A DNA stretch of 64,000 nt from Tahibacter harae. Lineage in GTDB: Bacteria > Pseudomonadota > Gammaproteobacteria > Xanthomonadales > Rhodanobacteraceae. Where the stretch lies: assembly GCF_024437735.1 (NCBI RefSeq), contig NZ_JANFQO010000002.1:124001-188000 (forward strand), read 5' to 3'. A program made the translations under genes and the position numbers. How positions within the stretch are numbered: the stretch's first letter is position 1; each line of letters begins with the position of its first letter. Of the stretch, positions 3,088 to 19,205 are shown piece by piece. A model generated the notes under the pieces. The model saw nothing but the letters and a program-made list of their open reading frames with translations, did no database searches and was not told where the DNA came from.

Positions 3088-3189
3088 GGGGGCGATCCGT
3101 ACTGGGGACGAAAGGGACACCAAAAATTGGTGTTAGACTTACATTATCACGGCAAAAATTTAAGTTAAAGATAAATTCCTGACAATTCC
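3088..3189. promoter_or_regulatory. AT-rich divergent promoter region
   Basis: This 102-base gap between the ABC exporter and the DUF2975 gene is far richer in A and T than its surroundings, and AAAAATT occurs on both sides of a TTGGTGTTAGACTTACATTA segment. It must hold promoters for both directions and plausibly the operator of the Xre regulator encoded in the rightward pair. I cannot assign exact -35 and -10 hexamers with confidence. Confidence 0.4.
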
Positions 3190-3935: not shown

Positions 3936-4253
3936 TCCCCGGCTGCTGCCGTCGGGTCCGCGTCCGCTTCCGCAGCTCGTTGTCAATAAGCGCTCATTAG
4001 ATACTTTAAGAAAAATTGCACATGCCACGCGCTGCACTCGGCCGGCCGCTGAGCCGCGTACGTGCAGCAGGCGGCATTACGCCGGTTTTCCCCGCCGCGC
4101 TGCCTGTGCTGCCCGCCGCCGGCGACCCATGCCGGCGGCATTGTGCGGCGGCGGTGCCATCGTCCACACGACGGACCACGCGGCTGCTTGATGCAGGTCA
4201 AGACCGCCGGACAGGACAGGCACTAGCGTGGGCACACCCCTCGGAGCCCCGCC
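3936..4253. other. Intergenic region with FNR-type box upstream of usp
   Basis: A gene-free stretch of 318 bases. The first third is followed by an AT-rich patch around 3980-4020 with no recognisable gene. The right end carries the FNR/FixK-type box at 4188-4201 and, 30 bases from the box centre, a CTAGCG element that fits a -10 position. No terminator with a T-tract follows the Xre gene. Confidence 0.5.
4188..4201 (+). promoter_or_regulatory. FNR/FixK-type box (TTGATGCAGGTCAA)
   Basis: Fourteen-base dyad matching TTGAT-N4-ATCAA except one base (G for A in the right half), which is the FixK/DNR form. The centre lies 59.5 bases before the usp start. A CTAG element centred 30 bases downstream fits the -10 of a class II promoter, which puts the predicted transcript start near 4236. 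Confidence 0.75.
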
Positions 4254-5078
4254 ATGAACGACGTGCTTGCCTATGCCAACGGCCATGACGACTGGGAGGC
4301 CGGCTTCGGCTTCGCCGCCCGCCTGGCCGCCCGGCTGGACGGCTGCCTCACAGGCCTGAACATCTTCCCCTCGCCCGCGGTGCCGGGCGGTTTCTACGGC
4401 GCCACGGAGACGTTCGCCGCGATCCTGGAAAGCGTGCGCAAGGCGGAGACCGCGGCTTATGCCGCCGGCGCCGGTTTCATCGCCTGGGCCGGCCGCCACG
4501 GCGTGCGCGCCGCTGCCTGGCAGGTGGCCGAGGGCAATGAGAGCAACGTATTGCAGCGCCTGGGCAACCGGCATGACCTGCTGGTGATGGCCCGCGACGC
4601 CCATGCGGCGGACGAGCATGTGCGGCTGGGCCAGATCCTGCTGCACAGCGGGCTGCCGCTGGTGCTGCTGCCGCCGGCCTGGACGCGGCCGCCCCGCTTC
4701 GATTGCATCGCCCTGGCGTGGAACGGCTCGGCGGAAGCCCTGCGCGCCATCCATGCCGCGCGGCCGCTGCTGCGGCGCGCACGCCGCATCGTGGTGCTGC
4801 GCGGCGAGTTGCGCGATGCGTACGCGGAGATCGGCTGGCTGCCGCCCTTCGATCTGGTGGACTACCTCGCCTGCCATGGCCTCGAAGCCGAGTTGCAGGG
4901 CATCGCCGAATCCGGCGATGCGGCCGGCCCGGCCCTGCTGGAGGCCGCGCACCTGCAGCGCGCCGACCTGCTCGTGATGGGCGGCTACGGACGCAGCCGT
5001 TTCAGCGAATGGATCCTGGGCGGCGCCACCCGTCATCTGCTCGGACATGCCAGCCTTCCGCTGTTCCTGCGCCATTGA
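4254..5078 (+). CDS. Universal stress protein, tandem UspA domains
   Basis: A 274-residue cytoplasmic protein with two UspA folds. The second is clearest: it opens at about residue 150 (FDCIALAWNGS) and ends in DLLVMGGYGRSRFSEWILGG, a form of the ATP-binding GxxG-x9-G(S/T) motif that is typical of two-domain UspE-like proteins. Such proteins support survival during energy limitation and hypoxia. The FNR/FixK-type box directly upstream predicts oxygen control. A second Usp of the same build lies at 13188-14006 on the other strand; both end in LPLFL(R/Q)H, so they are paralogues. The RNase gene follows after 58 bases and may be co-transcribed. Confidence 0.9.
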   Translation: MNDVLAYANGHDDWEAGFGFAARLAARLDGCLTGLNIFPSPAVPGGFYGATETFAAILESVRKAETAAYAAGAGFIAWAGRHGVRAAAWQVAEGNESNVLQRLGNRHDLLVMARDAHAADEHVRLGQILLHSGLPLVLLPPAWTRPPRFDCIALAWNGSAEALRAIHAARPLLRRARRIVVLRGELRDAYAEIGWLPPFDLVDYLACHGLEAELQGIAESGDAAGPALLEAAHLQRADLLVMGGYGRSRFSEWILGGATRHLLGHASLPLFLRH

Positions 5079-5136
5079 ACGCACCGGGACGCTGCGCCAT
5101 CGGACGCGGCGCGACGACACATCAGGAAAGTTCCGC

Positions 5137-6534
5137 ATGAGTGCACGCAAATCCCGGCCCGGGCGCAGCCAGTTCCGGCTCACGTTTCTCGGCGCCACCG
5201 GCACGGTGACCGGATCGCGCTACCTGGTCGAGGCCGGCGGCCGGCGCATCCTGGTCGATTGCGGCCTGTTCCAGGGCTACAAGCCGCTGCGGCTGCGCAA
5301 CTGGGCGGAGTTTCCGGTGGACCCGGCCAGCATCGAGGCCGTCGTGCTCACCCATGCCCATCTGGATCATTCCGGCTACCTGCCGCGCCTGGCGGCGCAG
5401 GGCTTCACCGGGAAAATCTGGGCTACCCGCGCCACGCGCTCCCTGTGCGGCATCCTGCTGCCGGATTCCGCACGTCTGCTCGAAGAAGACGCCGGCCACG
5501 CCAACCGCAAGGGCTACAGCAAGCATCATCCGGCCGAACCGCTCTACGACGAGGCACAGGCGCAGCAGGCGCTGCGCCTGTTCCAGCCCGCCGCCTGGGA
5601 GCGCAGCTTCGAACCCGTGCCCGGCCTGCGCGCGCGGCTGCATCCGCAAGGCCATATCCTCGGCGCCGCGGCGGTCACGCTGGAACACGCCGGCGCGCGC
5701 ATCACCTTCAGCGGCGACATCGGCCGCAACCATGATCCGGTGATGCGGCCGCCCGCGCCGCCGGCGCCGTCGGACTGGATCGTGGTCGAGTCGACCTACG
5801 GTAACCGCAGCCACGGCGGCGACCATCTGGAACAGGAACTGCTCAGCGTGTGCCGCCGCGTGCTGGCCCGCGGCGGCGCCATCGTGCTGCCGGCGTTCGC
5901 GGTCGGCCGCGCACAGCTGCTGTTGCTGCTCATCGCGCGCCTGCAGCAGCGCGGCGCGCTGCCGCGCGCGCCGTTGTATCTCAACAGCCCCATGGCCGCC
6001 GATGTCACCGCCCTGTACGAACGCTTCGCCGGCGAACACGCGCTGGGCCCCGAGGACTTCGCCCTGCTGCGCGAGCGCGTGCAGATCATCGGCACGGCCG
6101 ACGAATCGCGCGCGCTCAACGCCCGCAGCGGCCCGCTGATCGTGGTGTCGGCCAGCGGCATGCTGACCGGCGGGCGCGTACTGCACCATGTGCGCGCCTT
6201 CGGCCCGGACCCGCGCAATGCAATCGTGCTGGCCGGCTTCCAGGCCGGCGGCACCCGCGGCGCGGCGCTGGCCGGCGGCGCGCGCAGCCTGCGCATCCAC
6301 GGCGAGCAGGTCGCGATCAATGCGGAAGTGGTCGCGCTGCAGGCGGCCTCCGCCCACGCCGATTCGGACGAACTGCTGGCCTGGCTGCGCAGCGCGCCGG
6401 AACGCCCGCGCGGTGTCTTCGTCACCCACGGCGAGCCGGATGCGGCCGATGCCCTGCGTTTGCGCATCGAACACGAACTGGGCTGGCCGGCGCAGGTTCC
6501 CGAATACCGCGACAGCGTCGATCTGCTTGGCTGA
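5137..6534 (+). CDS. Beta-CASP metallo-beta-lactamase fold RNase
   Basis: A 465-residue enzyme of the CPSF73/RNase J-like group that cuts RNA with two zinc ions. The zinc motif HAHLDH is at residues 73-78, followed by HILGAAAV, SGDIGR and the beta-CASP motif A (VVESTYGNR); the late His of motif C lies in QAASAHADSDEL and a final VTHGEP supports the fold. Bacterial members of this length are often annotated as RNA-processing exonucleases and recur in proteobacterial hypoxia clusters beside Usp genes. I chose the ATG at 5137, which has an AGGAAAG ribosome-binding site, over in-frame codons upstream that overlap usp. It lacks its own FNR-type box and probably reads through from usp. Confidence 0.9.
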   Translation: MSARKSRPGRSQFRLTFLGATGTVTGSRYLVEAGGRRILVDCGLFQGYKPLRLRNWAEFPVDPASIEAVVLTHAHLDHSGYLPRLAAQGFTGKIWATRATRSLCGILLPDSARLLEEDAGHANRKGYSKHHPAEPLYDEAQAQQALRLFQPAAWERSFEPVPGLRARLHPQGHILGAAAVTLEHAGARITFSGDIGRNHDPVMRPPAPPAPSDWIVVESTYGNRSHGGDHLEQELLSVCRRVLARGGAIVLPAFAVGRAQLLLLLIARLQQRGALPRAPLYLNSPMAADVTALYERFAGEHALGPEDFALLRERVQIIGTADESRALNARSGPLIVVSASGMLTGGRVLHHVRAFGPDPRNAIVLAGFQAGGTRGAALAGGARSLRIHGEQVAINAEVVALQAASAHADSDELLAWLRSAPERPRGVFVTHGEPDAADALRLRIEHELGWPAQVPEYRDSVDLLG

Positions 6535-6588
6535 GCCGGGCCGGCGTCTGCCGGTGCGCTTCCCGCCGCGAATTCTCCGGAGTTTCCG

Positions 6589-7158
6589 ATGTCCGCCACC
6601 CATCCGCATTACCTGGATTCGGCCTCGCGCTGGTTCGGCCGGCGCTTCGCCGATCTCGACCACAGCACGCGGCGCGCCTTGAGCCACGCCGCGGAACGCC
6701 GCGCCATCGCCACCGCTCCGGCGACACAGCAGGACGTCGCCAGCTTCGGCGAGCGCATGGCCGACCGCGTCGCGCGCTTCGGCGGCTCGTGGGCCTTCAT
6801 CGGCCTGTTCGCCCTGTTCCTGGCCGGCTGGAGCCTGCTCAACACCCAGCTGCCGCGCGCGCTGGCGTTCGATCCCTACCCCTACATCTTCCTCAACCTG
6901 ATCCTGTCCATGCTGGCGGCGCTGCAGGCGCCGATCATCATGATGAGCCAGAACCGGCAGGCGGCCAAAGACCGCCAGATGGCCATCTACGATTACGAGG
7001 TCAACGTAAAGGCCGAGGTCGAGATCATGGCCCTGCACGACAAGCTGGACGCCCTGCGCAGCGAGCACCTGCTGGTGCTGTTGCAGCAGCAACAGGCGCA
7101 GATCGAACTGCTGACGCGCCTGGTGGCGGCACAGCCGCCGGCGCCCGCCGCGGACTGA
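6589..7158 (+). CDS. DUF1003 membrane protein
   Basis: A 189-residue inner-membrane protein. Two adjacent helices (about residues 68-86 and 98-118) carry the DUF1003 signature FGGSWAFIGLF and the run from YPYIFLNLILS to MMSQNRQ. The C-terminal 60 residues are a polar, probably coiled-coil tail (LLVLLQQQQAQIELLTRLV). The function of DUF1003 is unknown. The gene is 54 bases behind the RNase and 104 bases before the GNAT gene, in the same direction, which suggests a shared role in the putative hypoxia island. Confidence 0.85.
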   Translation: MSATHPHYLDSASRWFGRRFADLDHSTRRALSHAAERRAIATAPATQQDVASFGERMADRVARFGGSWAFIGLFALFLAGWSLLNTQLPRALAFDPYPYIFLNLILSMLAALQAPIIMMSQNRQAAKDRQMAIYDYEVNVKAEVEIMALHDKLDALRSEHLLVLLQQQQAQIELLTRLVAAQPPAPAAD

Positions 7159-7191
7159 ACGCGGCGCCGGCGCGCGGTCGTTGGCGGCGGA

Positions 7192-7205
7192 TTGATCCGC
7201 GTCAA
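7192..7205 (+). promoter_or_regulatory. FNR/FixK-type box (TTGATCCGCGTCAA)
   Basis: Dyad TTGAT-N4-GTCAA, centred 64.5 bases before the GNAT gene. A GCATGCTGGC segment lies 30 bases downstream of the centre, at the position of a -10 element. It predicts a transcript start near 7240 and separates the GNAT gene from the preceding usp-RNase-DUF1003 unit. Confidence 0.75.
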
Positions 7206-7262
7206 GTCGCGCCGCGCGGTCAGGCGCATGCTGGCAGCACCTGACCTGCAACGGAGTCTCCC

Positions 7263-7844
7263 ATGAACATCACCCGCAACAACGCCGGCGACGTGTCCGC
7301 GCAGAGCCTGACGGCCGCACCGATGAGCAGCACCTCGCCGCAGTGGACGCATACCCTGCGCAACGGCGTGCCAGTCGTGATCCGCCCGCTGGGCAAGGCG
7401 GATGCCGCACTGGAGCGCGCGTTCATCGCCGCGCTGTCGGCGCAGTCGCGCCGGTTCCGTTTCCTGGGCCAGATCGGCTGTCCCGGCGATGCGCTGATCC
7501 GCCGCCTCACCGACATCGACTATGTACACGATGTCGCTTTTGTCGCCCTTGCGGACAGCGCTGGTGCGCAGCAGGAAATCGGCGTCGCGCGCTACAGCGT
7601 CTCCGCCGATGGCAAGTCCTGCGAATGCGCGGTCGTCATCGCCGATGCGTTCCAGGGCCAGGGCCTGGGTACCCTGCTGATGAACCACCTGATCGCAATT
7701 GCGCGCAGCCGCGGCATCGGCGAGATGATCTCGCTGGATGCGGCGGAGAACTTCGCCATGCGCGACCTGGCCCAGGCACTGGGCTTCCGGCGCGAACCGG
7801 ACCCCGAGGACGGCAGCCAGGTCATACACCGCCTGACGCTGTAG
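7263..7844 (+). CDS. GNAT-family N-acetyltransferase
   Basis: A 193-residue enzyme. A 30-residue N-terminal extension leads into a GNAT fold: CECAVVIADAFQGQGLGTLL (about residues 120-139) is the acetyl-CoA pyrophosphate loop (Q/RxxGxG/A), followed by a long helix with HLIAIARSRG and the late strand EMISLDAAEN. It transfers an acetyl group to an amine; the acceptor could be a protein lysine, since GNATs with an RFRFLG motif resemble the acetyltransferase domain of Pat-type protein acetylases. An FNR-type box precedes it. The start ATG is preceded by ACGGAG. Confidence 0.85.
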   Translation: MNITRNNAGDVSAQSLTAAPMSSTSPQWTHTLRNGVPVVIRPLGKADAALERAFIAALSAQSRRFRFLGQIGCPGDALIRRLTDIDYVHDVAFVALADSAGAQQEIGVARYSVSADGKSCECAVVIADAFQGQGLGTLLMNHLIAIARSRGIGEMISLDAAENFAMRDLAQALGFRREPDPEDGSQVIHRLTL

Positions 7845-8075
7845 GCACCGCCACGCCGCGCGTCGATGAGGTTTCCGTCGCTCCGCCCGCATCCCGTCCC
7901 GCGGCGATGGTTGTACCGGACTGCCCGCACGGCGGCTTGTTGCGCATTGTGCCGGCGTGTGCGTGGCCGAAGTCCGCGGACCCGTGCAGCCGGGCGCCGT
8001 TTCCGCGGCCTCGGACATGCCTAAACCCAGCCTGTGCGCGTCTGCGCTCCCAGTCAGGATCCCCCCGCTGCTGGT

Positions 8076-10607
8076 TTATCTCCGTGCAGCGGCGGCCGCC
8101 GGACCGACCGGCTCACGCCGCGCGCGCGACAGCGCGACCAGCACGGTCGGCAGGGCCAATGCCGCCAGGGTCCACGCTGGCGGCGGCGGGGCGAAGCGGA
8201 AAAACGCGGCGAGCGCGGGAAGGTACAGGCCGAGGCCAAGCATCGTCAGTGCCGCCGCAGCAATAATCCAGAATGCCGCATTGTCCGCCCGCAGGGCGCC
8301 GCGCAGACCCGACTCGTTGCGGTTGAACGCCAGCAGGGCGAGATTGCCGGCGACGATGGCGGTGAAAGCCAGCGCCGCGACCGTCGCTGCATCGGCGCCG
8401 CGGCTCCAGGCCCACAGATAAACCAGGGCGGCGCCCAGCGTGGCCGCGGCGCCTTCCAGCAGGCTGGCGACCAGCAGGCGCCGCCCGATCAGGCGCTGGC
8501 CGGCCGGCCGCGGCGGCAGCGCCAGCGGATCGGAACGCGCGGGCTGGCGCTCAAACACCAGTGTGCAGGCGGGATCGATTACCAGTTCAAGGAATACGAT
8601 GTGCACCGGGGACAACACCAGCGGCCCGCCCAGCAGCAGCGGCAGCACGGCCATCGCCACTACGGGCACATGCACGGCGAGGATGTAGCGCAGGGCGCGG
8701 CGGATATTGGCGTAGATCTGCCGGCCGAGGCGGATGCCGTTGACCACCGAGACGAAATTGTCGTCCAGCAGCACGATCTGCGCGGCTTCGCGCGCAACGT
8801 CGGTGCCGCGCCGGCCCATGGCAATGCCCACATGTGCCGCCTTCAGCGCCGGCCCGTCGTTCACGCCGTCGCCGGTCATCGCCACCACATGGCTCTGGCT
8901 GCGCAGGGCGCGTACCAGGCGCAGCTTCTGATCGGCGGCGATGCGCGCAAACACCTGGCAGCGGCGCAGGCAGGCCGCCAGCTGGTCGTCGTCGAAAGTG
9001 GCCAGCTGTGCGCCGGTGGTGACCTCCGCCGCCGGCAGTCCGGCGGCAGCGGCGATGCTGGCGGCCGTGGCCGGATGATCGCCGGTGATCATGACGATGC
9101 GTATGCCCGCCGCCGTCGCCGCGGCGATCGCCGCCGTCACGCCGGTGCGCAACGGGTCGACGAAGCCCAGCCAGCCGCAGAACGCGAATCGCAGCTCGCG
9201 CGGCGATTCGGGCAGCATCGCCGCTGGCGCGATCTCGGCGCGGGCGACGGCCAGCAGCCGCAGGCCCTGTGCCGCCGCGGCGGCAACCTCGGCAAACAGT
9301 GTTTCCCGCGCCGCGGCGGACAGCCGGCACAGTTCCGCGACGGCTTCCGGCGCGCCCTTGCTGGCGATGAAACGGCTGCCGTCCGGCCGCAGCCAGGCGT
9401 GACTGGCGGCGAGCAGGCTCCGATCCAGCGGATAGGCGCGCAGGTGCCGCAGCGCCTCGGCCACCGCTGCCCCCCGGGCCTCGGCAATGGCGGTCTCCAT
9501 GGGGTCGACCGGCGTTTCCTCGCTGGCCCAGGCGGCGTAGCGCAGCAGATCGCCGAACAGCGCCGGCGGGCGCTGGTCCGGTCCGGCCGCGCGCCAGGCC
9601 TGCGTGGGCGTGGCGAGGGCGGCGATGCGCATGCGGTTTTGCGTCAGCGTTCCGGTCTTGTCCACGCACAGCACGCTGATGGCGCCCAGCGTCTCTATGG
9701 CCGGCGGCCGGCGCACCAGCACCTGCACCGCGGCCAGGCGCCAGGCGCCCAGAGCCAGGAACAGCGTGAGCACGACAGGAAATTCTTCCGGAATGTTGGC
9801 GATGGCCAGGGTGAGGCCGGCGAGCAGCGCGTCCAGCCAGCCGCCGCGGCCGGACCCGACATAGGCGAGCGTGACCAGGGTGCAGAAAGCCAGTCCCAGC
9901 GCCGCGAACAGGACCACCGCACGGTCAATCTCGCGCTGCATTGGCGTGCGTTCCGGCGCGATGTCGCGCAGCGCCGCACCGATACGCCCCACGCTGGTGG
10001 CGGCGCCGGTTGCGTCCACCCGCGCCAGGGCCTGGCCCGCAACGACCAGCGTGCCCGCAAACACCCGCGCTGCAGACAGCGTGCCGGCGTCCGCCGCCGC
10101 ATTCGTGGTTTCCGCACTGTGTTTTTCCGCTGCTACGGATTCTCCGCTGAGCAGGGATTCATCGACCCGCAGCCCGGCACTCTCGATCAGCACGGCATCG
10201 GCGGGTACCCGGTCGCCCGGCCCGAGCAGGATCACATCCTCGGGCACCAGCTCGCGCGCATCGCAGACAGTGGCGCGGCCGTCGCGCAAAACGCGCGCCT
10301 GCGGGCTGGACAGCTCGCGCAGGGCGGCCAGGGCCCTCTGGGTCTTGCCGGCCTGATACACGGTATTGGCCACGACCAGCGCGACCGAGCCGCCCAGCAC
10401 GGCCGCTTCGGCGGCGTCGCCCAGCAGCCAGTAGAGGCCCGCGGCGGTGGCCAGCAGGGCGAGCATGGGCTCGCGCAGGGCATCCACCAGCAAGGCCAGC
10501 GGCGAATGCGGCCGGTCCTGCGGCAGCACATTGGGACCGCAGCTGCGCAGGCGGCGCCGGGCCTCGGCCGTGCCGAGGCCGACAGGAGGCTGAGGCGGAA
10601 TGTTCAT
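8076..10607 (-). CDS. P-type cation-transporting ATPase (P2-like)
   Basis: An 843-residue membrane pump. It has the N-terminal cation-ATPase domain (GTAEARRRLRSCGPNVL), an actuator-domain SGES (usual TGES), a membrane motif PEEFP where P2 calcium pumps have PEGLP, the phosphorylation site DKTGTLT with Asp316, a KGAPEAV nucleotide-domain motif and the hinge TGDGVNDGPALK. Six C-terminal helices complete the P2 topology. The substrate is probably a divalent or monovalent cation; PEEFP differs from classical Ca2+ pumps, so I leave the ion open. Two FNR-type boxes lie upstream. The centre of the nearer box is 41.5 bases from the ATG, so a transcript from that box would be leaderless. Confidence 0.9.
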   Translation of the reverse strand: MNIPPQPPVGLGTAEARRRLRSCGPNVLPQDRPHSPLALLVDALREPMLALLATAAGLYWLLGDAAEAAVLGGSVALVVANTVYQAGKTQRALAALRELSSPQARVLRDGRATVCDARELVPEDVILLGPGDRVPADAVLIESAGLRVDESLLSGESVAAEKHSAETTNAAADAGTLSAARVFAGTLVVAGQALARVDATGAATSVGRIGAALRDIAPERTPMQREIDRAVVLFAALGLAFCTLVTLAYVGSGRGGWLDALLAGLTLAIANIPEEFPVVLTLFLALGAWRLAAVQVLVRRPPAIETLGAISVLCVDKTGTLTQNRMRIAALATPTQAWRAAGPDQRPPALFGDLLRYAAWASEETPVDPMETAIAEARGAAVAEALRHLRAYPLDRSLLAASHAWLRPDGSRFIASKGAPEAVAELCRLSAAARETLFAEVAAAAAQGLRLLAVARAEIAPAAMLPESPRELRFAFCGWLGFVDPLRTGVTAAIAAATAAGIRIVMITGDHPATAASIAAAAGLPAAEVTTGAQLATFDDDQLAACLRRCQVFARIAADQKLRLVRALRSQSHVVAMTGDGVNDGPALKAAHVGIAMGRRGTDVAREAAQIVLLDDNFVSVVNGIRLGRQIYANIRRALRYILAVHVPVVAMAVLPLLLGGPLVLSPVHIVFLELVIDPACTLVFERQPARSDPLALPPRPAGQRLIGRRLLVASLLEGAAATLGAALVYLWAWSRGADAATVAALAFTAIVAGNLALLAFNRNESGLRGALRADNAAFWIIAAAALTMLGLGLYLPALAAFFRFAPPPPAWTLAALALPTVLVALSRARREPVGPAAAAARR

Positions 10608-10641
10608 GCGGCCACGCTAGCGGTTCGGCCTGCGGCTCGGC

Positions 10642-10655
10642 TTGATCTGGGTCAA
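10642..10655 (-). promoter_or_regulatory. FNR/FixK-type box (TTGATCTGGGTCAA) toward P-type ATPase
   Basis: First of two boxes in the ATPase/phasin-like divergent gap. On the ATPase strand a CTAGCGTGG segment is centred 30 bases from the box centre, the same element and spacing as at the first usp gene. This arrangement predicts transcript initiation at or very close to the ATPase start codon. Confidence 0.75.
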
Positions 10656-10669
10656 TGCCCGCGGCCGGG

Positions 10670-10683
10670 TTGACGCCGGTCAA
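10670..10683 (+). promoter_or_regulatory. FNR/FixK-type box (TTGACGCCGGTCAA) toward phasin-like gene
   Basis: Second box of the divergent pair, 28 bases from the first (centre to centre). A CTATGCTGCC segment lies 30 bases beyond its centre on the plus strand, at the -10 position, and predicts a transcript start near 10718, 25 bases before the phasin-like gene. The left half has C in place of T at the fifth position. Confidence 0.7.
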
Positions 10684-10742
10684 GGCGCCGCCCGGCCGGC
10701 GGTCTATGCTGCCGTCATCCTGTACAGCGCGAGGATGATCCC

Positions 10743-11087
10743 ATGGCCCGATCCACGATCGCAGCGACGACGCCGGCCGGCGCATTGGCGCCGCGCACGG
10801 AAATTCCCTGCTCCCCGTTTGCCGCCTTGTTTCCCGCCTGGCTGCAGCCGGCCGCGCAATGCCAGCGCGAATGGCTGCAGTTCGCCATGCGGCGCTGGCG
10901 CAAGGACATGGACACCCTGGTCCAGCTTGCCTGCTGCGGCAGCGCCGCGGAACTGGTCTGCGTGCAGTACGAAGCGGCCGCCGATGCCGCCGCGGACTAC
11001 CTCGGCGATTTGCACCGGCAGCTGGCCAATCTGGAGCAGGCCGTACGGCCGCGGGCATACAGCGTCGCGGCCGTGCACGGCGGCTGA
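10743..11087 (+). CDS. Phasin-like small protein
   Basis: A 114-residue protein. After a 28-residue leader comes a helical segment (LQPAAQCQREWLQFAMRRW, about residues 36-54) and a second helix with repeated Ala and polar residues (VQYEAAADAAADYLGDLHRQ). This layout resembles phasins, which coat polyhydroxyalkanoate granules, and the small phasin-like proteins of anaerobic or dormancy regulons in proteobacteria. The gene is divergent from the P-type ATPase and has its own FNR-type box. The family call is by pattern only; a role unrelated to granules is possible. Confidence 0.6.
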   Translation: MARSTIAATTPAGALAPRTEIPCSPFAALFPAWLQPAAQCQREWLQFAMRRWRKDMDTLVQLACCGSAAELVCVQYEAAADAAADYLGDLHRQLANLEQAVRPRAYSVAAVHGG

Positions 11088-11132
11088 AATCCACCGGCTG
11101 AGCCGGTGCCGCCGTCACGCGGCGGCGCCGGC

Positions 11133-12161
11133 TCAGGTCAGGTCCAGCACCACGCGCCCATCCACGCGGCCCTGCCGCAGCCGCTCGAACACCGGGTTGA
11201 TGTCCGCCAGCGGCGCGCAATGGTAATGCGCACGCACTTTCCCCTGTGCCGCCAGCGCAAGCGCCTCGGCCAGATCGTTGCGCGTGCCGACGATGGAGCC
11301 GCGCAGCGTGATGCGCTTGAGGACCACGTCGAACACGGGCGTGGCGAATTCCCCCGGCGGCAAGCCAACCAGGCTCACCGTGCCGCGCCGGCGTGCCAGT
11401 TGCAGCGCCTGGCGGAACGCCGGCAGCGACACTGCGGTGACCAGCACGCCGTGAGCGCCGCCGCCGGTGGCCTTGAGCACCTGCGCCACAGCGTCGGGGG
11501 CGGCGGCATCGACGGTCAGATCGGCTCCCAGAGCCCGCGCCAGGGCGAGTTTGTCCTCGCCGAGGTCCAGCGCGGCCACCAGCAGGCCCATGGCCTTGGC
11601 GTATTGCACCGCGATATGGCCCAGTCCTCCGATGCCGGAAATGGCGAGCCATTCGCCCGGCCGGGCCTCGGTTTCGCGGATGCCTTTGTAGGTGGTGACA
11701 CCCGCGCACAGGATGGGCGCCAGCGCGTGGAAATCCGGCTGTGGCGGCAGCCGCGCGACGTAGTCCGCCGCGCCGATCGCATACTGTGCGAAGGTGCCGT
11801 TCACGCTATAGCCGCTGTTGTGCTGCGCCTCGCACAGCGTTTCCCAGCCGCCCACGCAATGCTCGCAGCGGCCGCAGGCGTCATGCAGCCAGGCCACGCC
11901 GACGGCATCGCCTTCGCGCAGGTTCTTCACGCCCTGGCCCAGCGCCGCCACTACGCCGGTGCCTTCGTGGCCGGGGATGAAGGGCAGCACCGGCCTGACC
12001 GGCCAGTCGCCGTCGGCGGCATGCAGGTCGGTATGACAGACGCCGCTGGCGCGCAGCCGTATCAGCACCTCGCCAGGTCCCGGTACCGGCACCTTCAGCG
12101 ACTCGATCTGCAGCGGCTGGCCGAACTGGCGCACGACGGCGGCTTGCATCGTTGTGGACAT
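11133..12161 (-). CDS. adhP: Zinc-dependent alcohol dehydrogenase (AdhP-like)
   Basis: A 342-residue MDR-family NAD(P)+-dependent alcohol dehydrogenase that interconverts primary alcohols and aldehydes. Catalytic zinc ligands are in GVCHTDLH, GHEGTG and the late LCAGVTTYKG; the structural zinc site is CGRCEHCVGGWETLC (four Cys). The Rossmann motif GIGGLGHIAVQYAK follows. Length and motifs match the propanol-preferring AdhP branch, which often serves fermentation under low oxygen. The start MSTTMQAAVV is the ATG that fits the family; an upstream in-frame extension is unlikely. A perfect FNR consensus box lies 57 bases before it. Confidence 0.9.
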   Translation of the reverse strand: MSTTMQAAVVRQFGQPLQIESLKVPVPGPGEVLIRLRASGVCHTDLHAADGDWPVRPVLPFIPGHEGTGVVAALGQGVKNLREGDAVGVAWLHDACGRCEHCVGGWETLCEAQHNSGYSVNGTFAQYAIGAADYVARLPPQPDFHALAPILCAGVTTYKGIRETEARPGEWLAISGIGGLGHIAVQYAKAMGLLVAALDLGEDKLALARALGADLTVDAAAPDAVAQVLKATGGGAHGVLVTAVSLPAFRQALQLARRRGTVSLVGLPPGEFATPVFDVVLKRITLRGSIVGTRNDLAEALALAAQGKVRAHYHCAPLADINPVFERLRQGRVDGRVVLDLT

Positions 12162-12218
12162 GATCTCGCTCCGCAATGATCCGACAGGGCCACCGTAGCC
12201 AAATGCCGGCGGCGGCGC

Positions 12219-12232
12219 TTGATCGAAATCAA
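12219..12232. promoter_or_regulatory. Perfect FNR box (TTGATCGAAATCAA) between adh and DUF2238
   Basis: This is the exact FNR consensus TTGAT-N4-ATCAA, symmetrical and therefore able to serve both directions. Toward adh, a GCTACGGTGG segment lies about 29 bases from the centre; toward the DUF2238 gene a GGATGCTGGC segment lies 30 bases away. Both fit -10 positions. Confidence 0.8.
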
Positions 12233-12352
12233 TACCGGCAATCGCGCAGGGCGGATGCTGGCCGCAGCACCGCCGGCGCTGGCGCCGTCTGCACGCCGCC
12301 GGCGGCAAGGCGGTGCACAAGTCCGCACAGAGCGGAGGCTTACAGGAGGCTC

Positions 12353-12970
12353 ATGAACGCATCGATCCGGCAAATCCCGTCGCGCTATCCGCTGTTGCTG
12401 CTGGGCGTGTTCGTCGCCGTCTGGATCGCGCTCGGCATCGCTCCCCGATACCGCCAGGACTGGCTGCTGGAAAACGTGCTGGTGCTGATCGCGGTGCCGC
12501 TGCTGATCCTGGGCCATCGGCGCCTGCGTTTTTCCGACGCCACCTGTACCTGCCTGTTCGTCTTTCTGCTGCTGCACGAGATCGGCGCGCATTACACGTA
12601 TTCCGAGGTGCCCTTGCCGGCCTGGCTGGACGGCGCGCTGCAGCAGGTCATGCTCACGCCGTCGCGCAACCATTTCGACCGCCTGGTGCATTTCCTCTAC
12701 GGCGTGCTGATCACGCCCCTGGCGGTGGAGCTGCTCGACGCCCGCGCGCCGCAACAGGGCATTTGGCGCTGGCTGCTGCCCTGGCTGTTCGTCGTCTCCC
12801 ACGCGACCCTGTTCGAGATCGTCGAGGCCGCCGCGGCTGGCGCGTTCGGCGGCGATCTGGGCCAAGCCTACCTGGGTATGCAGGGCGATATCTGGGACTC
12901 GCAGAAAGACTCGGCCCTGGCCGCCGCCGGCGCCGCACTCAGCGTCGTTTTCCTGCGCCGGCGCGCATAG
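12353..12970 (+). CDS. DUF2238 (YjdF-like) membrane protein
   Basis: A 205-residue inner-membrane protein with about six helices. The conserved DUF2238 features are LLHEIGAHYTYSEVP (about residues 75-89), the NHFDRLVHFLYG segment (about residues 105-116) and the GDIWDSQKDSALA near the C-terminus (about 183-195). The His and Asp residues in these loops are the family hallmark; the biochemical role is not known. A strong AGGAGG ribosome-binding site fixes the ATG. Divergent from adh and probably driven from the shared FNR box, with a leader of roughly 85 bases. Confidence 0.88.
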   Translation: MNASIRQIPSRYPLLLLGVFVAVWIALGIAPRYRQDWLLENVLVLIAVPLLILGHRRLRFSDATCTCLFVFLLLHEIGAHYTYSEVPLPAWLDGALQQVMLTPSRNHFDRLVHFLYGVLITPLAVELLDARAPQQGIWRWLLPWLFVVSHATLFEIVEAAAAGAFGGDLGQAYLGMQGDIWDSQKDSALAAAGAALSVVFLRRRA

Positions 12971-13187
12971 CGTCCGGCGCGTCCCCGCGACGCTCGATCA
13001 CGTACGCAAGCTGGCGGCGGCGCATCCGCGCTATGCCGGGTTCGCCGACTACGGCGATGCAGGCTTGGCAACGACACCGCGGGACTGCGGCGCAAGCAGT
13101 GCAAATAGCCTTGCGCTGCCGCCGGTTGTGCCCGATGCGACGGTACGCCGTCCGGAGCCGATCGGACCGCGCAGCCGCGCCGGTCTG

Positions 13188-14006
13188 TCAATGCTGCAGG
13201 AACAACGGCAGCGGACAGTGCTGCAGCAGGTACCGCGTCGCGCCGCCCAGCATCCATTCGCTGAAGCGGTTGTGGCCGTAGGCGCCCATCACCAGCAGGT
13301 CCGCGCCCGCCGCTGCCGCGGCCTGGGCCAGGGACGCACCCGCATCGTCGGGATCGATGCGCTGGCGCGAAACGGCCAGCGGCACGCCCTTGCCGCGCAG
13401 ATAGCCGGCGATGCCGCCGGGCGGTTCGACGCTGCCGCGGCGGCGGCCGGGTGCCGCATCGCCGAGCAGGACCACTTCATCGGCGCGCAGCAGCAGTCCC
13501 AGCGCCGAGCGGAGAGCGCGGATGCATTCGGCCGAGGCGTTCCAGGCCACGGCGATACGCCGCGGCGGCGCGAATACGGCGTCGCTGCGTACGATCAGGC
13601 AGGGGCGCCGGCTGGTCAGCACGATCTGGCCCAGCGCAGCCACGTCCATGCATTCATTGCTCTCGTCGGCCTCCAGCACGACAAGGTCGTGCCAGTCGGC
13701 GGCGGCGGCAATGGTCGCCGCGAACGGCGCCTCCGCCGATTGCCAGCGGAAGCCGTCCAGTCCGCGCGACCGGGCCCATTCGGCGAAGGCCGTGCCGCCC
13801 TCGCCCGCCGCGCGGCGCTGCTGCAGCAGATAGTCGATGGCATCGGCGATGGCGGCCGGCGAATCGAAGGCCGGGCCGCCGAGGAAAGGCTGAACCAGGT
13901 ACAGGGCGGTGAGCGGCGCATCGAACTGCGCACTCAGCCAGGCGGCGTATTCAAAACTGGCGGGCCGCGCGTGGCAGCGCGTGAAGGGAAGCAGCAGGTC
14001 GCGCAT
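13188..14006 (-). CDS. Universal stress protein, tandem UspA domains (paralogue)
   Basis: A 272-residue two-domain Usp. The second domain opens at RRIAVAWNASAE and closes with DLLVMGAYGHNRFSEWMLGG. It is clearly related to the usp at 4254-5078 across its whole length. I chose the ATG that has GGAG eight bases upstream; two further ATGs lie 12 and 6 bases before it. No FNR-type box is visible in the 290 bases before it, so it may be under different control, possibly the 10-bp repeats at 14231-14260 that it shares with the divergent response-regulator gene. Confidence 0.9.
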   Translation of the reverse strand: MRDLLLPFTRCHARPASFEYAAWLSAQFDAPLTALYLVQPFLGGPAFDSPAAIADAIDYLLQQRRAAGEGGTAFAEWARSRGLDGFRWQSAEAPFAATIAAAADWHDLVVLEADESNECMDVAALGQIVLTSRRPCLIVRSDAVFAPPRRIAVAWNASAECIRALRSALGLLLRADEVVLLGDAAPGRRRGSVEPPGGIAGYLRGKGVPLAVSRQRIDPDDAGASLAQAAAAAGADLLVMGAYGHNRFSEWMLGGATRYLLQHCPLPLFLQH

Positions 14007-14230
14007 GGACATCTCCATCGGAGGGATACGGTGCGTGGTCGGCACGGCGATACCGCGTCGGGCTGCCGCTGCTGCCATGCCGCGCACCCGCCGGGATCGC
14101 AGGTGCCTCGCTGCAGCGCGGCGGGCCGCGGGCCAGAAAGCGGGTACGCAGCAGCCCGGCTACCCGCGGGAACAGCATCGCCGCCGTGGTCACAGGCTAA
14201 CGCCGCGCGGCGGCGCCGCGACGACGCGCC

Positions 14231-14260
14231 GGCAACCGTCGGTAACGGTCGGTAACAGGG
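14231..14260 (+). promoter_or_regulatory. Triple 10-bp direct repeat (GGYAACNGTC), candidate OmpR-type operator
   Basis: Three consecutive decamers, GGCAACCGTC, GGTAACGGTC and GGTAACAGGG, in perfect 10-bp phase. OmpR-family regulators bind such face-aligned direct repeats. The repeats lie about 100 bases upstream of the response-regulator start and upstream of a candidate TATGAT -10 at 14299-14304. The same array recurs before the Crp/Fnr gene. Confidence 0.65.
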
Positions 14261-14332
14261 CGCGATATCCGGCATGGCAACGGCAGGCCGGGCGCGCTTA
14301 TGATGGCAAGGGATCCACCACCGCCGCCGCCG

Positions 14333-15064
14333 ATGGATGCAACTATTCCACATGTCCTGTGTGTGGACGACGAGGAAGAAATCCGCACCCTGCTCGAACG
14401 CTATCTGAGCCGCCAGGGACTGCGCGTGAGCCTGGCCGCCAACGGCGCCGACATGCGCAGCGTCATCGCCCAGGGCGGCGTGGACGTGGTGCTGCTCGAT
14501 CTGGGCCTGCCCGGCGATGACGGCCTCGGCCTGGTGCGCCATCTGCGCGAGCACTGGGACGGCGCGGTAATCATCGTCAGCGGCCGCGCCGATGCAGTCG
14601 ACCGCATCGTCGGGCTGGAGCTGGGCGCCGACGACTACGTGACCAAGCCCTTCGACCTGCGCGAACTGCTGGCGCGCGTGCGCAGCGTGCTGCGGCGCCT
14701 GGCGGCGGCGCGCACGCCGGCTCCGGCGGCCGCAGCGTCCCGCCCGGTCGCCCGCTTCGCCGGCTTCCAGCTGGATCTCGCCGCGCGCACGCTGCACGGC
14801 CGCGACGGCGCCAGCGTGGAGCTGACCAGCGGCGAGTTCGAACTGCTGCGCGCCTTCGTCCAGCGGCCCAACGAAGTGCTGTCGCGCGACACCCTGATGA
14901 ACAGCCTCTACGGCCGCGACGCCGGCCCTTACGACCGCGCCATCGACATGCAGATCGGCCGCCTGCGGCGCAAGATCGAGGCCGAACCCGAGCGTCCGGC
15001 GCTGATCAAGTCGGTGCGCGGCGCCGGCTATCTGTTCGTGCCGGCCGTGGAGCACGGTTCATGA
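14333..15064 (+). CDS. OmpR-family response regulator
   Basis: A 243-residue two-component regulator. The receiver domain has the acidic pair in VDDEEE (about residues 10-14), the phospho-acceptor Asp56 in LLDLGLPG, Ser/Thr switch VSGRA and Lys in TKPFD. The C-terminal winged helix ends in RRKIE and VRGAGYLF, typical of OmpR/PhoB. Two in-frame ATGs at 14300 and 14303 could add 11 residues of poly-proline; I prefer 14333 because it sits just before the receiver fold and because TATGAT at 14299-14304 looks like a -10. The stop overlaps the kinase start by four bases. It probably regulates itself and the Crp/Fnr gene through the 10-bp repeats. Confidence 0.9.
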   Translation: MDATIPHVLCVDDEEEIRTLLERYLSRQGLRVSLAANGADMRSVIAQGGVDVVLLDLGLPGDDGLGLVRHLREHWDGAVIIVSGRADAVDRIVGLELGADDYVTKPFDLRELLARVRSVLRRLAAARTPAPAAAASRPVARFAGFQLDLAARTLHGRDGASVELTSGEFELLRAFVQRPNEVLSRDTLMNSLYGRDAGPYDRAIDMQIGRLRRKIEAEPERPALIKSVRGAGYLFVPAVEHGS

Positions 15065-17064
15065 GCCTGAGCCCCGACAGCGGCGCCGCACTCTACCGCG
15101 CCTTGTTCGAGACCGCGCCCGATGCCATGGTCGTGGTCGCCCGCGACGGGCGCATCGTGCTGGCCAATCCGCAGGCCGCGCGCCTGTTCGGCTATGCGCT
15201 GGATGAACTCATCGGGCAGCCGATGGAGCTGCTCATGCCCGAACACGTGCGCGAGCGCCATCATTCGCATCGCGCCGGCTACATGGAACGGCCGCGCGTG
15301 CGCCCCATGGGCGCGGGGCAGGAACTGGTCGGGCAGCGGCGCAACGGCGACCAGTTTGCCGTGGAGATCGCGCTCAGCCCGGTCGACAGCGGCAGGGAAA
15401 TCCTGTTTGCCGCCTCGATACGGGATATTTCCGAAACCCAGCGCCAGCGCCAGGCGCTGGCGCGCGCGCGCTTTGACGCCTATACCGCCCAGATCGGCCA
15501 GGCCGCGCTGCAGACCGGCAACTTCGACAAGCTCGGCGAACGCACCGCGGCGCTGCTGCGCGAGGCGCTGGGCGCCTGCGCCGTGGGCATAGTCCTGTTC
15601 CAGTCGCCGCACGGACGCCTGCTGAGCAGCGCCACGGAAGCCGCGCAGGACGATATCGTGGAACGCGCCTGCGCCTTGTTGAACCTGGGGCCGGAGAACT
15701 GTCCGCGCGAACCCGCCGACTGGCTGCAACGCCTCGGCGCCCACGCCGACTGGCCGCGGACGGATATCGGCGGCGCGCGCATCCAGCCCATACTCGATCA
15801 CGAACTTCCCCTGGGCGCGCTGATCGTGCTGAGCGCTTCGCCCTGGCGCGCCGACCGCGATATCGAACACTTCCTCGGCATCGTGGCCAACATGCTGGCC
15901 ACGGCGGCGCTGCGCCATCACGCGCAGGAGCAGCTCGCCCATTCCCAGCGCCTGGAAGCCGTGGGCCAGCTGACCGGCGGCATCGCCCACGACTTCAACA
16001 ATCTGCTGACGGTGATCTCCGGCAACCTGCAATTGCTGGAAGACCTGGTCGCGCAGGATCCGCTTGCCGGCGACGCGGTCACCCGCGCGCTGCGCGCCGT
16101 CGGGCGCGGCGCCGAACTCACACGCAAGCTGCTGGCTTTCGCCCGCCGCCAGCGCCTCAGCCCCGATGCGGTGGCGCCGGCCGAACTGCTGCGCGAACTG
16201 GGCCGCATGCTGGAACGCACGCTGGGCGAAACCATCCAGGTACGCATCGACTGCGCGCCGGGCCTGCCGGCGGTATTCGCCGATCCTTCCCAACTGGAAG
16301 GCGCGCTGCTGAACCTCGCCCTGAACGCCCGCGACGCCATGCCCCGCGGCGGCGTGCTCTCGATCGGCGCCGCCGAGCATGTCGTCGCCCCTGGCAGCGA
16401 CGGCACCGAGCTGGCGCCCGGCCGCTATATCTGCTTCACCATCGCCGATACCGGCCTGGGCATGCCGCCGGAGGTGCTGGCGCGCGCCTTCGAGCCGTTT
16501 TTCACCACCAAGGAATCCGGCAAGGGCAGCGGCCTGGGTCTGAGCATGGCCTACGGCTTCGTCAAGCAATCCGGCGGCCATCTGATGGCGCAGAGCCAGC
16601 TCGGCTACGGCACGCAGATGGAATTGTTCCTGCCGCTGGCGCCGTCGGCCGCCGCGAATGCGTCGCCGCTGCCGGCGGCTTCGGACATGAGCGGCCACGA
16701 GACCGTGCTGGTGGTCGAGGACGAGCCCGAAGTGCGCGGCATCGCCGTGGCCTTCCTGCGCGCGCTGGGCTATCGCGTGCACGAGGCCGCCGACGCCGCC
16801 GGCGCCCTGCAGCACCTGCAAGAGGACGCGGCCATCGCCCTGCTCTTCAGCGATGTGGTGCTGGGCGGCGGTGCCAACGGCATCGAGCTGGCGCAGATGG
16901 CGCGTGCGCTGCGCCCGGCGCTGCCGGTGCTGCTGACCTCGGGCTACGAACTGGGCAGCAGCGACATGCCGCACGAGTTCCCGCTGCTGCGCAAACCCTA
17001 CCGCAAGGAAGAACTGGCCGGCGCCGCGCGCGCGGCGCTGCTGCGCCAGCGCCCGCCGGACTGA
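15061..17064 (+). CDS. Hybrid sensor histidine kinase (PAS-GAF-HisKA-HATPase-REC)
   Basis: A 667-residue soluble kinase without membrane helices, so it senses a cytoplasmic signal. Order: PAS (about 5-120), GAF-like (about 140-290), HisKA with His310 in [11 protein letters not shown], HATPase with [17 protein letters not shown] and [13 protein letters not shown], then a C-terminal receiver with Asp598 in LLFSDVVL and Lys in RKPYRK. The PAS segment [11 protein letters not shown] places His67 where FixL has its haem-ligating His (RSRHDSYISRY), although the FixL distal Arg (GIGRIV) is Gln here (GAGQEL). It is translationally coupled to the response regulator. The stop abuts the convergent Crp/Fnr gene with no gap. 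Confidence 0.9.
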
Positions 17065-17781
17065 TCAGGCGGCCTGCTGCACCAGCTCCGCGCCGTTGGC
17101 GCAGACGGCCAGGCGCTCGGTGCAGACGATGCGGATTTCCCGGCGCTCCACCGTGATGACACCGGCGGCGGCCAGTTGCGACAGGGCGCGGGTCACGGTC
17201 TCGTGCTTGAGGGCGAGGAAACTGGCGATGTCGCTGCGGCTCATGCGCAGCACGAAATGGCTGGCGGAGAAACCCAGCGCGCGATGGCTGGCCGCCACTT
17301 CCTGCAGAAAGGCCGCGACACGCTGGTTGGCGCTCAGCGTGGCCACGGCCAGGCGCCAGTACTGGTCGCGGCGCAGTTCCTGCGCCAGGGCCTGGGTCAG
17401 CGCGGCCTGCAGCACCGGCAACGCTGCGCAGGCCTGCAGCACGGCCGGATAGGCCAGCTCGACCACTTCGCAATCTTCCAGGGCGATCACGTCGGCGGTG
17501 TAGTGGGCGCTGCCTATCGATTCCACGCCGAGCAGTTCGCCGCGCATGGGAAAGCCTGTCACCAGCTCGCGGCCGTCGGCGGCGGCGACGCTGCGGCGCA
17601 GGAAGCCGGCGTGGACGAAGAACAGGGCGCGGAACGGCTGGCCGCTGCGATAGACCGGCTTGCCGGCGCGGATGCGCCGGCGCTGCACCGTCATGTGCGC
17701 GGACAGGGCCTCGATATCCAGGGCATCCGGCACCAGGCGCAGCGCCGGTGTGCAGGGCGGAACGAAGGCGGCGGTGTTCAT
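17065..17781 (-). CDS. Crp/Fnr-family regulator without Fe-S cysteines (FixK/DNR-like)
   Basis: A 238-residue transcription factor: a cyclic-nucleotide-binding-like beta barrel (about 35-130), a dimer helix and a Crp-type helix-turn-helix. The recognition helix reads HETVTR (Glu194, Thr197, Arg198), matching FNR E-x-x-S-R and predicting TTGAT half-sites. Unlike FNR it has only one N-terminal Cys (Cys10), so it cannot hold a 4Fe-4S cluster; FixK and DNR share this trait. An AGGAG site fixes the ATG. Upstream are three 10-bp repeats and a TTGAC-N4-CTCAA box, which suggests control by the adjacent response regulator and by itself. It is the best local candidate to bind the six FNR/FixK-type boxes. 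Confidence 0.9.
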   Translation of the reverse strand: MNTAAFVPPCTPALRLVPDALDIEALSAHMTVQRRRIRAGKPVYRSGQPFRALFFVHAGFLRRSVAAADGRELVTGFPMRGELLGVESIGSAHYTADVIALEDCEVVELAYPAVLQACAALPVLQAALTQALAQELRRDQYWRLAVATLSANQRVAAFLQEVAASHRALGFSASHFVLRMSRSDIASFLALKHETVTRALSQLAAAGVITVERREIRIVCTERLAVCANGAELVQQAA

Positions 17782-17858
17782 GGCGGCTCCTGTCGGCAGT
17801 CGGGCATCGGCGTTGGGACAAAGCCTAGCGAGCGGCCTGCGTGCCCTGAGCACACCCC

Positions 17859-17888
17859 GGCAACGGCGGGTAACAGTGTGTAACGACG
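17859..17888 (+). promoter_or_regulatory. Triple 10-bp direct repeat upstream of crp/fnr gene
   Basis: Decamers GGCAACGGCG, GGTAACAGTG and TGTAACGACG in perfect 10-bp phase, matching the array at 14231-14260 in core (GYAAC) and spacing. They lie 78 bases before the Crp/Fnr start and overlap the position where a -10 driven by the neighbouring FixK-type box would fall, so the regulator bound here could activate or block. Confidence 0.65.
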
Positions 17889-17895
17889 CGGGGAA

Positions 17896-17909
17896 TTGAC
17901 CTGGCTCAA
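17896..17909. promoter_or_regulatory. FNR/FixK-type box (TTGACCTGGCTCAA)
   Basis: Weaker dyad with C at the fifth position of the left half and C at the matching position of the right half. It sits between the divergent Crp/Fnr gene and the RNR-like gene. The centre is 42.5 bases from the RNR-like ATG, and CATAGT at 17933-17938 fits a -10, which predicts a leaderless transcript. Confidence 0.65.
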
Positions 17910-17944: not shown

Positions 17945-18970
17945 ATGGACTATGGGTTTCGCTATCGCAGCGGCGTGCATGCAACGCCGACCACGTTCGT
18001 CGATCCGGTCGCAGTCGAAGCCTGGGACGCCTGGTTCCGCTGGCGCGAAGGCAATGCGCTGCGCGACCTGACCATAGACGCCACCTGGTCGCGCGTCACC
18101 GGCGCGCTGTGCGCGCTGACGGCGGGCCAGCCGGCGCGGCACGAACAGCAGATCGGCGACGCCATCAGCAGCTGGCGGCTGCTGCCGGACGAACGCATTC
18201 TCGCCGGCGCCGGCACGCGCGGATTCGCCTGGCCCGCACGCGGCCTCAACGCCACCATCAACCTGGCGCGCTTCGTGTCCCTGCCGTTTACCGAACGCGC
18301 CAGCCTCCACACCGATTCGCTCGCGGCGACCGTGCTGCTGGCGCTGCGCCTGCTCGACGATATCCGCCATGCCGCCGGCTGTCCCGAGGCGCAGCCACGG
18401 CTGGGCATTATCGGCCTGGCCGACGCCCTGGCCATGCTGGGAACCGACTACACCGCCGCCAGCGGCTGCGCCGCGGCCGCCGAAACCGTGCGCCTGTTCG
18501 CCACGGCGACACTGCTCGCCAGTGCCCAGCTCGCCCAGGAACGCGGCGCCGCCAACGGTGCTGCGCAGACGGCCGCGGCCCAGCCGCGCTTGGACGGATA
18601 CCTGTGCAGCACCGACGCCAACGCGATCCGCACCTCCGGACTGCGCTTCGGCCCGCTCACCGCCGCCGATTCCCAGCCGCGCCTGGCCTTGCTCGCCAAC
18701 AACGTCGCCGATGCGCTGAGCCCGCTGCGCGGCGAGCGGCAGACCTACGACATCAAGGGACCGCAGGGCGAACGCCAGGTCACAGGCTCGGGTTTCGCCC
18801 TCACCCTGTGGCGCCAGCTGGGCGCGCGTTCCGGTGCGCGGGCCTTTCCCTATCCGACCGCCGCGGCCACGACGGAGGCAGACAGGGCACGCATTGCCGC
18901 CGCGGTACAGCCCTGGCTGGACTTTCCGGTGGCGGCGCAGGCGGTTGCCTCACCCTGTACTGCCGCCTGA
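17945..18970 (+). CDS. Shortened class II ribonucleotide-reductase-like protein
   Basis: A 341-residue protein. Residues 20-90 (VAVEAWDAWFRWREGNALRD and following) resemble the N-terminus of B12-dependent NrdJ. Residues about 100-200 resemble the segment with LNATINLARFV, RLLDDI and LGIIGLADALAMLG, which in full enzymes lies well past the radical-bearing Cys. The intervening barrel with the NxCxE active site is absent, and full-length NrdJ exceeds 700 residues, so it is unlikely to reduce ribonucleotides alone. It could regulate or assist a complete NrdJ encoded elsewhere, or bind nucleotides. The internal junction is in frame, with intact codon bias, so the gene looks functional rather than decayed. 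The FNR-type box and a -10 close to the ATG suggest leaderless, oxygen-controlled expression. Confidence 0.6.
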   Translation: MDYGFRYRSGVHATPTTFVDPVAVEAWDAWFRWREGNALRDLTIDATWSRVTGALCALTAGQPARHEQQIGDAISSWRLLPDERILAGAGTRGFAWPARGLNATINLARFVSLPFTERASLHTDSLAATVLLALRLLDDIRHAAGCPEAQPRLGIIGLADALAMLGTDYTAASGCAAAAETVRLFATATLLASAQLAQERGAANGAAQTAAAQPRLDGYLCSTDANAIRTSGLRFGPLTAADSQPRLALLANNVADALSPLRGERQTYDIKGPQGERQVTGSGFALTLWRQLGARSGARAFPYPTAAATTEADRARIAAAVQPWLDFPVAAQAVASPCTAA

Positions 18971-19205
18971 TGCGCGGCGCAGCTGCAAGGAAGATCAGGA
19001 CATCCGCGCGCGCATTGCACCGGCGGGCGCCGCGATCTGCGCCGCTGCGCTGACCCGACCCGCCGCCATCGCCGCGTCCGCCCGATCCCGCCGCCACCGG
19101 ATCCGCTGTTGACGCCGGCCACCGTGCATGCCCTGATACGCGGTTCCTGTCGCCGGGCGCGCCTGCGCAGTCCCGGCATTGTTTCCGATCTCCCGCGATG
19201 ACCTC

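Follow-up and report, generated by a model that had tools for sequence, protein, structure and literature searches.

Genes, boxes and promoters of the cluster

The window analysed here, a 64 kb stretch (G000:C12:124001-188000) of the genome of Tahibacter harae, a soil-type bacterium of the Lysobacterales, carries a cluster of stress-type genes with six FNR/FixK-type boxes (TTGA-N6-TCAA), together with genes for a hybrid histidine kinase, a response regulator and a Crp/Fnr-family protein. The boxes, their spacing, the repeats described below, their conservation and the domain content were computed directly from the DNA, and gene families were assigned with Pfam and NCBIfam. The first box, TTGATGCAGGTCAA (4188..4201, plus strand), has the -10 element TAGCGT 32 bases from its centre and belongs to the usp1 operon. 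This operon comprises usp1 itself (4254..5078, plus strand), encoding a universal stress protein (Pfam PF00582, 3.4e-09), and likely also the genes for an MBL/beta-CASP/RMMBL RNase-type protein (5137..6534, plus strand; open frame 5047-6534) and a DUF1003 protein (6589..7158, plus strand; family search). The second box, TTGATCCGCGTCAA (7192..7205, plus strand; CATGCT at 31 bases), precedes the gene for a GNAT acetyltransferase (7263..7844, plus strand; family search) and is kept in the genomes G004 and G007. Two further boxes lie between a P-type cation ATPase gene (8076..10607, minus strand) and the gene for a 114-amino-acid protein (10743..11087, plus strand): TTGATCTGGGTCAA (10642..10655, minus strand) faces the ATPase gene with TAGCGT at 32 bases on the minus strand, while TTGACGCCGGTCAA (10670..10683, plus strand) faces the small-protein gene with TATGCT at 31 bases, and both are kept in G004. 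The earlier note had called the 114-amino-acid protein phasin-like, a label without Pfam support, as no family scored above its cut-off.

The fifth box, TTGATCGAAATCAA (12219..12232), lies between a gene for a zinc alcohol dehydrogenase resembling AdhP (11133..12161, minus strand; 332.7 bits to PRK09422, under its cut-off of 344) and a gene for a DUF2238 membrane protein (12353..12970, plus strand; start codon picked in the analysis within the open frame 12176-12970). It has TACGGT at 31 bases toward adhP and GATGCT at 31 bases toward the DUF2238 gene, and it is kept in G004; a box upstream of adhP is also present in G002 and G007. A second universal stress protein gene, usp2 (13188..14009, minus strand), had no box of its own that we could find. 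The sixth box, the asymmetric TTGACCTGGCTCAA (17896..17909, plus strand), lies upstream of a gene for a protein of 341 amino acids resembling ribonucleotide reductase (RNR-like; 17945..18970, plus strand), with CATAGT at 33 bases. The match of this protein covers only part of the RNR barrel profile (positions 230-347 of 523). Many relatives have it next to their repeats, and it may be an RNR relative without catalytic function. The transcript start of the ATPase gene, inferred from its -10 element, coincides with its ATG, and the predicted starts of the ATPase and RNR-like genes on or near their ATG codons (10607 and 17945) suggest that both transcripts may be leaderless.

The earlier note had described six intergenic dyads in under 14 kb, and we confirmed all of them where it had placed them. 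The six matches to TTGA-N6-TCAA in the window compare with 0.13 expected, and none of 100 shuffles reached six; the stricter form TTGAYN4RTCAA matched five times, with 0.06 expected. All six boxes are intergenic under the start codons picked in the analysis; with the longest possible starts, those at 12219 and 17896 fall within the extended DUF2238 and crp/fnr frames, respectively. A random rate of the dyad across the genome, a concern raised in the same note, is not what was found in the 5.99 Mb searched (79 contigs), where the dyad occurred 37 times and its reversed control pattern 18 times (stricter form, 24 against 6). Six of these 37 boxes fall within 13.7 kb, or 0.23% of the genome, for which an even spread would give roughly 0.09. 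Another five of the 37 are copies of one repeat, TTGATCATTCTCAA, located 20-39 bases from the starts of contigs C4, C8, C22, C25 and C34, which is probably a repetitive element at which the assembly broke off.

Boxes were also counted in related loci. From 80 named loci, 15 without kinase, regulator or repeats were dropped after inspection, and these were exactly the loci whose crp match was below 43.5% identity, a cut chosen post hoc. The remaining 65 loci (1.16 Mb) contained 277 boxes, compared to 6.2 in shuffles and three for the reversed pattern, and the 15 set-aside loci contained 28, compared to 4.6 and two. In alignments of the gnat, ATPase/114-amino-acid, adhP/DUF2238, crp/RNR-like and regulator promoters from genomes of the same genus, the boxes and the GTAAC units described below were the best-conserved stretches. 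Boxes upstream of usp1 were found in G001, G002, G003 and G007.

The position of the -10 elements was similarly regular. TANNNT was found exactly at 31-32 bases from the box centre in four promoters of the window (usp1, ATPase, 114-amino-acid protein and adhP), and near-matches were found in three others (gnat and DUF2238 at 31, RNR-like at 33), in agreement with the earlier note, which had put such an element about 30 bases from most box centres. On 566 box sides, drawn from the 65 related loci and the first 26 kb of the window, TANNNT occurred 41 times at 31 bases and 24 times at 32 (65/566 together), compared to between zero and five times at each other distance from 10 to 65. Because of this peak in relatives, the boxes look like those of class II FNR/FixK-type promoters. 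The recurring -10 sequences singled out in the earlier note fared less well: CTAGCGTGG is indeed confined to the two promoters named (usp1 and ATPase), but five of 100 shuffles also gave at least two copies, and the 15 copies of ATGCTGSC in the window compare with 10.8 expected, so that its position alone matters.

Sensor kinase, regulator and K-box-like repeats

The regulatory genes of the cluster begin with an OmpR-type response regulator resembling FxkR (14300..15064, plus strand), assigned by family search, by its match to FxkR9 and by a tree. It is followed by the hybrid kinase (15061..17064, plus strand), with PAS, HisKA, HATPase and receiver domains, and by the FixK-like Crp/Fnr-family regulator (17065..17781, minus strand; start codon picked in the analysis), which has ETVTR in its helix-turn-helix. 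When rhizobial proteins were searched against this genome, the window kinase was the best match to hFixL9 (312 bits, the next reaching 114), and the window regulator was the best match to FxkR9 by a narrow margin (212.5 vs 200.3 bits). In a tree of 31 regulators, those of the module formed one group with Variovorax (support 99/98). The first PAS domain of the kinase is FixL-like and best matched FixL structures (1d06, 8.5e-21), with the haem domains of DosP lower on the list. Among 57 relatives with a strong kinase match, 54 could be aligned over this domain and three start too late; with residue numbering and roles (proximal His, distal Arg) as we assume them to be, the haem-ligand position is His in the window kinase and in all 54, which makes haem binding by this domain plausible. 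No FNR-type N-terminal cysteine cluster was present in the window Crp/Fnr protein or in the orthologues read, and this protein was rejected as a candidate FNR because the cluster is missing.

Upstream of both the response regulator and the crp/fnr gene, three GTAAC-type units recur with a period of 10. Pattern search located the first of these triple K-box-like repeats (GCAAC-N5-GTAAC-N5-GTAAC) at 14232..14256 (plus strand) and the second, which was also supported by relatives, at 17860..17884 (plus strand), the common form being G(T/C)AAC. The pattern was derived from the window, and the relatives served as the test set. Relatives with the same three genes also carry GTAAC-type repeats: kinase and regulator were both present in 55 of the 80 loci, and a repeat was found upstream of crp in all 53 that could be assessed (46 triple, 7 double), the other two having fewer than 200 bases upstream of crp. 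Four loci had either the kinase or the regulator, and three of these carried a triple repeat. None of the 15 loci below the post hoc identity cut gave a match to the kinase or the regulator, and none had a repeat. Beyond the upstream regions searched, repeat pairs were rare (five in 1.38 Mb).

Across this genome, the exact GTAAC pair occurred three times and its reversed control twice, and the pair alone was therefore discarded as a weak genome marker; the triple performed better (three vs zero). A triple was found in seven of 398 genomes of the phylum, namely the module genomes G000, G002 and G012 plus G170, G179, G207 and G371. The third triple of this genome lies at C2:61187-61211, where no clear target gene was found. 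The K-boxes of pRL9 share the GTTAC core and the period of 10 in the sequence stretch read; compared to the rhizobial form GTTACA-N4-GTTACA, the repeats here vary at the sixth base and usually have a third unit. The Variovorax and S. meliloti loci gave no match to the strict K-box pattern, and by eye only degenerate repeats were seen there.

Weighing of the proposed relay

Taken together, we consider it probable that these genes form a regulon for survival at low oxygen, governed by a kinase, regulator and Crp/Fnr relay encoded in the cluster itself. In the mechanism we propose, the hybrid kinase would sense low oxygen through its putative FixL-like haem PAS domain and phosphorylate the OmpR-type response regulator, which would bind the tripled K-box-like repeats and switch on its own operon and crp/fnr. 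The Crp/Fnr protein would then act like FixK, binding the TTGA-N6-TCAA boxes, whose centres would lie near -41.5, and activating, as opposed to repressing, the usp1-RNase-DUF1003 operon and the genes for GNAT, P-type ATPase, AdhP, DUF2238, the 114-amino-acid protein and the RNR-like protein. FNR proteins of the cysteine-bearing type (Cys-type) encoded elsewhere would probably read the same boxes. We infer oxygen as the signal; since the local Crp/Fnr protein lacks an Fe-S cysteine cluster, this signal would have to come via the FixL-like kinase or via two Cys-type FNRs.

Several observations weigh against this relay. Among the loci with a regulator, one has no repeat (a locus with only one of kinase and regulator). 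Repeats are also present in six of 21 loci that have neither kinase nor regulator in the examined stretch (4 triple, 2 double; 15 none), and while two of these six are on contigs shorter than 11 kb, where the genes may be beyond the contig end, four are not. Only three of 56 assessable relatives carry a repeat in front of the regulator gene itself (57 loci, one unassessable). FxkR9 and a S. meliloti regulator come next to the module group in the regulator tree with poor support (87/11), and identity between the window Crp/Fnr protein and rhizobial FixK9a/b is only 28-29%. The loci counted above share kinship and are not independent events. The remaining points of this kind are those that favour a rival explanation.

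An alternative explanation, which we think unlikely but take seriously, is that the boxes belong mainly to a global Cys-type FNR/Anr regulon, and that the three regulatory proteins of the cluster act on other targets or serve only for fine-tuning. Two FNR proteins with a CxxCx5C motif are encoded on contig C11 of this genome and may read the same boxes. Moreover, in a comparison set of ten genomes that carry GNAT or Usp and for which the search gave no close orthologue of crp (nine of the 11 such GNAT genomes, plus G001), five (G010, G014, G024, G029 and G035) have boxed GNAT or Usp homologues beside a Cys-type FNR gene, and the boxes therefore do not need a FixK-like protein. Three others (G001, G003 and G032) have boxes with no FNR in the stretch examined, and G020 and G022 have no box in the stretch examined. 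G001, which belongs to the same genus and is 95% complete, keeps two boxes upstream of usp1. In G003, a fragmented assembly with a triple repeat, the module was probably missed. Against a purely global regulon speaks T. soli (G007), in which the FixK-like query matched only the two module proteins at E<=1e-20. Six Crp_2-type matches there exceeded the Pfam cut-off, two being the module proteins, and none of the other four has an FNR-type cysteine cluster. The total of six TTGAYN4RTCAA sites in T. soli equals that of the reversed control, again a point on the rival's side, and it is their placing, not their number, that is informative: five of the six are no more than 20 kb from the module proteins. 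This placing, with no Cys-type FNR found, speaks for reading by the local Crp/Fnr protein, as does the fact that many loci of Rhodanobacteraceae and Lysobacteraceae have the module embedded among box genes. Overall, the boxes are predicted to be read by proteins of the FNR/FixK class in general, and the local Crp/Fnr protein is likely the main activator in this genome.

It is also conceivable, though in our view improbable, that the relay is real and its signal is not oxygen, the haem of the PAS domain having a changed choice of ligand (nitric oxide, carbon monoxide or redox) or the domain having no haem, and the cluster being a more general stress regulon. The distal Arg of FixL steadies bound oxygen, and the corresponding position is Gln in the window kinase and Tyr (27), Gln (18), Met (5) or Phe, Thr, Leu or Ile (one each) in the 54 relatives, a further point against oxygen sensing as proposed here. 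A His at the haem-ligand place also occurs in PAS domains without haem. However, the best-scoring solved relatives of this domain are FixL haem domains, and the genes for HemN-type, azurin-type, Cu-oxidase/cytochrome c and ODP proteins that follow boxes elsewhere in the genome fit low oxygen. That the dyads arose by chance or through coding bias is very improbable: several other genomic boxes do sit inside predicted genes or have no -10 element, but chance was rejected for the window boxes on their enrichment, the fixed -10 spacing in relatives and the conservation of the promoters.

Related systems and the wider regulon

The proposed relay recalls that of rhizobia. In two papers, FxkR is described as binding in front of fixK at a K-box (GTTACA-N4-GTTACA), and anaeroboxes of the form TTGAT-N4-ATCAA as the sites bound by FixK (PMC7888657, PMC4999443); one of them puts the origin of the hFixL-FxkR-FixK relay in the ancestor of the Rhizobiaceae (PMC4999443). 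The window shares with this system a hybrid FixL-like kinase, a regulator that best matches FxkR9, a Crp/Fnr protein without the cysteine cluster, period-10 GTTAC repeats upstream of crp/fnr and TTGA dyads downstream. Unlike the rhizobial relay, it has mostly tripled repeats, a host in the Gammaproteobacteria and a replaced distal Arg in the PAS domain, and its box genes are Usp, ATPase and alcohol dehydrogenase stress genes, not those of the cbb3 oxidase. By these comparisons, control of the cluster would work like the hFixL-FxkR-FixK relay, to which the window corresponds in part when membership is taken strictly. A kinase-regulator-Crp trio also lies among Usp, MBL and related genes in one Variovorax and one Sinorhizobium plasmid. 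Compared to FNR/Anr regulons, the window has the same dyad, class II spacing and two Cys-type FNRs in the genome, but its local regulator is without the Fe-S cysteine cluster.

The earlier note had likened the controlled set to dormancy regulons, and its gene content does recall both the DosR regulon and the lxa locus of Burkholderia. The DosR regulon includes P-type ATPase and RNR-like members, and DosR binds another motif. Like the DosR regulon, which contains several Usp proteins in Mycobacterium tuberculosis (PMC6127331), the window cluster holds several Usp proteins; DosR is described in another report as a regulator of the NarL subfamily (PMC3029386), whereas the window regulator is of the OmpR type. 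The lxa locus of Burkholderia cenocepacia is presented in two papers as a low-oxygen-induced cluster of Usp with metabolic, stress and transport genes, and FixLJ and fixK are mentioned in Burkholderia in the same papers (PMC6127331, PMC9104464). By gene content, the window likewise groups its Usp genes with others for metabolism, stress and transport.

Elsewhere in the genome, boxes precede genes for a Cu-oxidase/cytochrome c protein, which we take to be nirK-like, a HemN-type radical SAM protein, an azurin-type copper protein and an ODP-family protein. A second box-rich stretch (G000:C12:40000-56000) has five boxes in 11.4 kb, with genes for Hsp20, Usp, BON, cyclopropane synthase-type and PAS-GGDEF proteins. 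This wider set of boxes fits a low-oxygen programme of the lxa or Dos type. What the earlier note had described as a compact oxygen-responsive regulon thus held up as a box regulon of dormancy-type genes, on the basis of enrichment, -10 spacing and conservation in relatives, but the local layer of kinase, regulator and Crp/Fnr protein had been overlooked; likewise, the six boxes are clustered, but the set extends beyond the cluster to further boxed genes in the genome.

Other parts of the window were also annotated. A TrmY-type tRNA methyltransferase gene lies at 19179-19814 (NCBIfam PRK02135, above its cut-off), TrmY being a mainly archaeal family. Two very long open frames with coding-like base composition were found at 23399-31474 (2691 amino acids) and 46143-50852 (1569 amino acids), and ABC transporter genes resembling those of lantibiotic protection, under the curated cut-offs, lie at 1394-3123.

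The relay itself is known mainly from nitrogen-fixing root bacteria, and what would be new here is such a relay beyond the Rhizobiaceae, with tripled K-box-like repeats and a link to a universal-stress cluster. Judged by titles and the openings of abstracts, the open-licence papers found for FxkR and hFixL dealt with rhizobia, legume symbiosis or plant microbiomes, and among the papers listed we found no report of such a relay in Lysobacterales or outside rhizobia. The broader proposal is that the K-box relay is a wider proteobacterial low-oxygen survival switch and not a nitrogen-fixation invention of the Rhizobiaceae, with a Lysobacterales form marked by tripled K-boxes, a FixL-like sensor with mostly Gln or Tyr in place of Arg in its oxygen-binding pocket and a Usp-centred dormancy set; for this we see the case as evenly balanced. 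If true, one locus in Lysobacterales would connect a putative haem sensor with a DNA motif and a set of target genes, and a triple GTAAC repeat next to genes for a kinase, a regulator and a Crp/Fnr protein would be a readable signature for such regulons. It would also predict a sensor with a changed oxygen pocket, which is directly testable.

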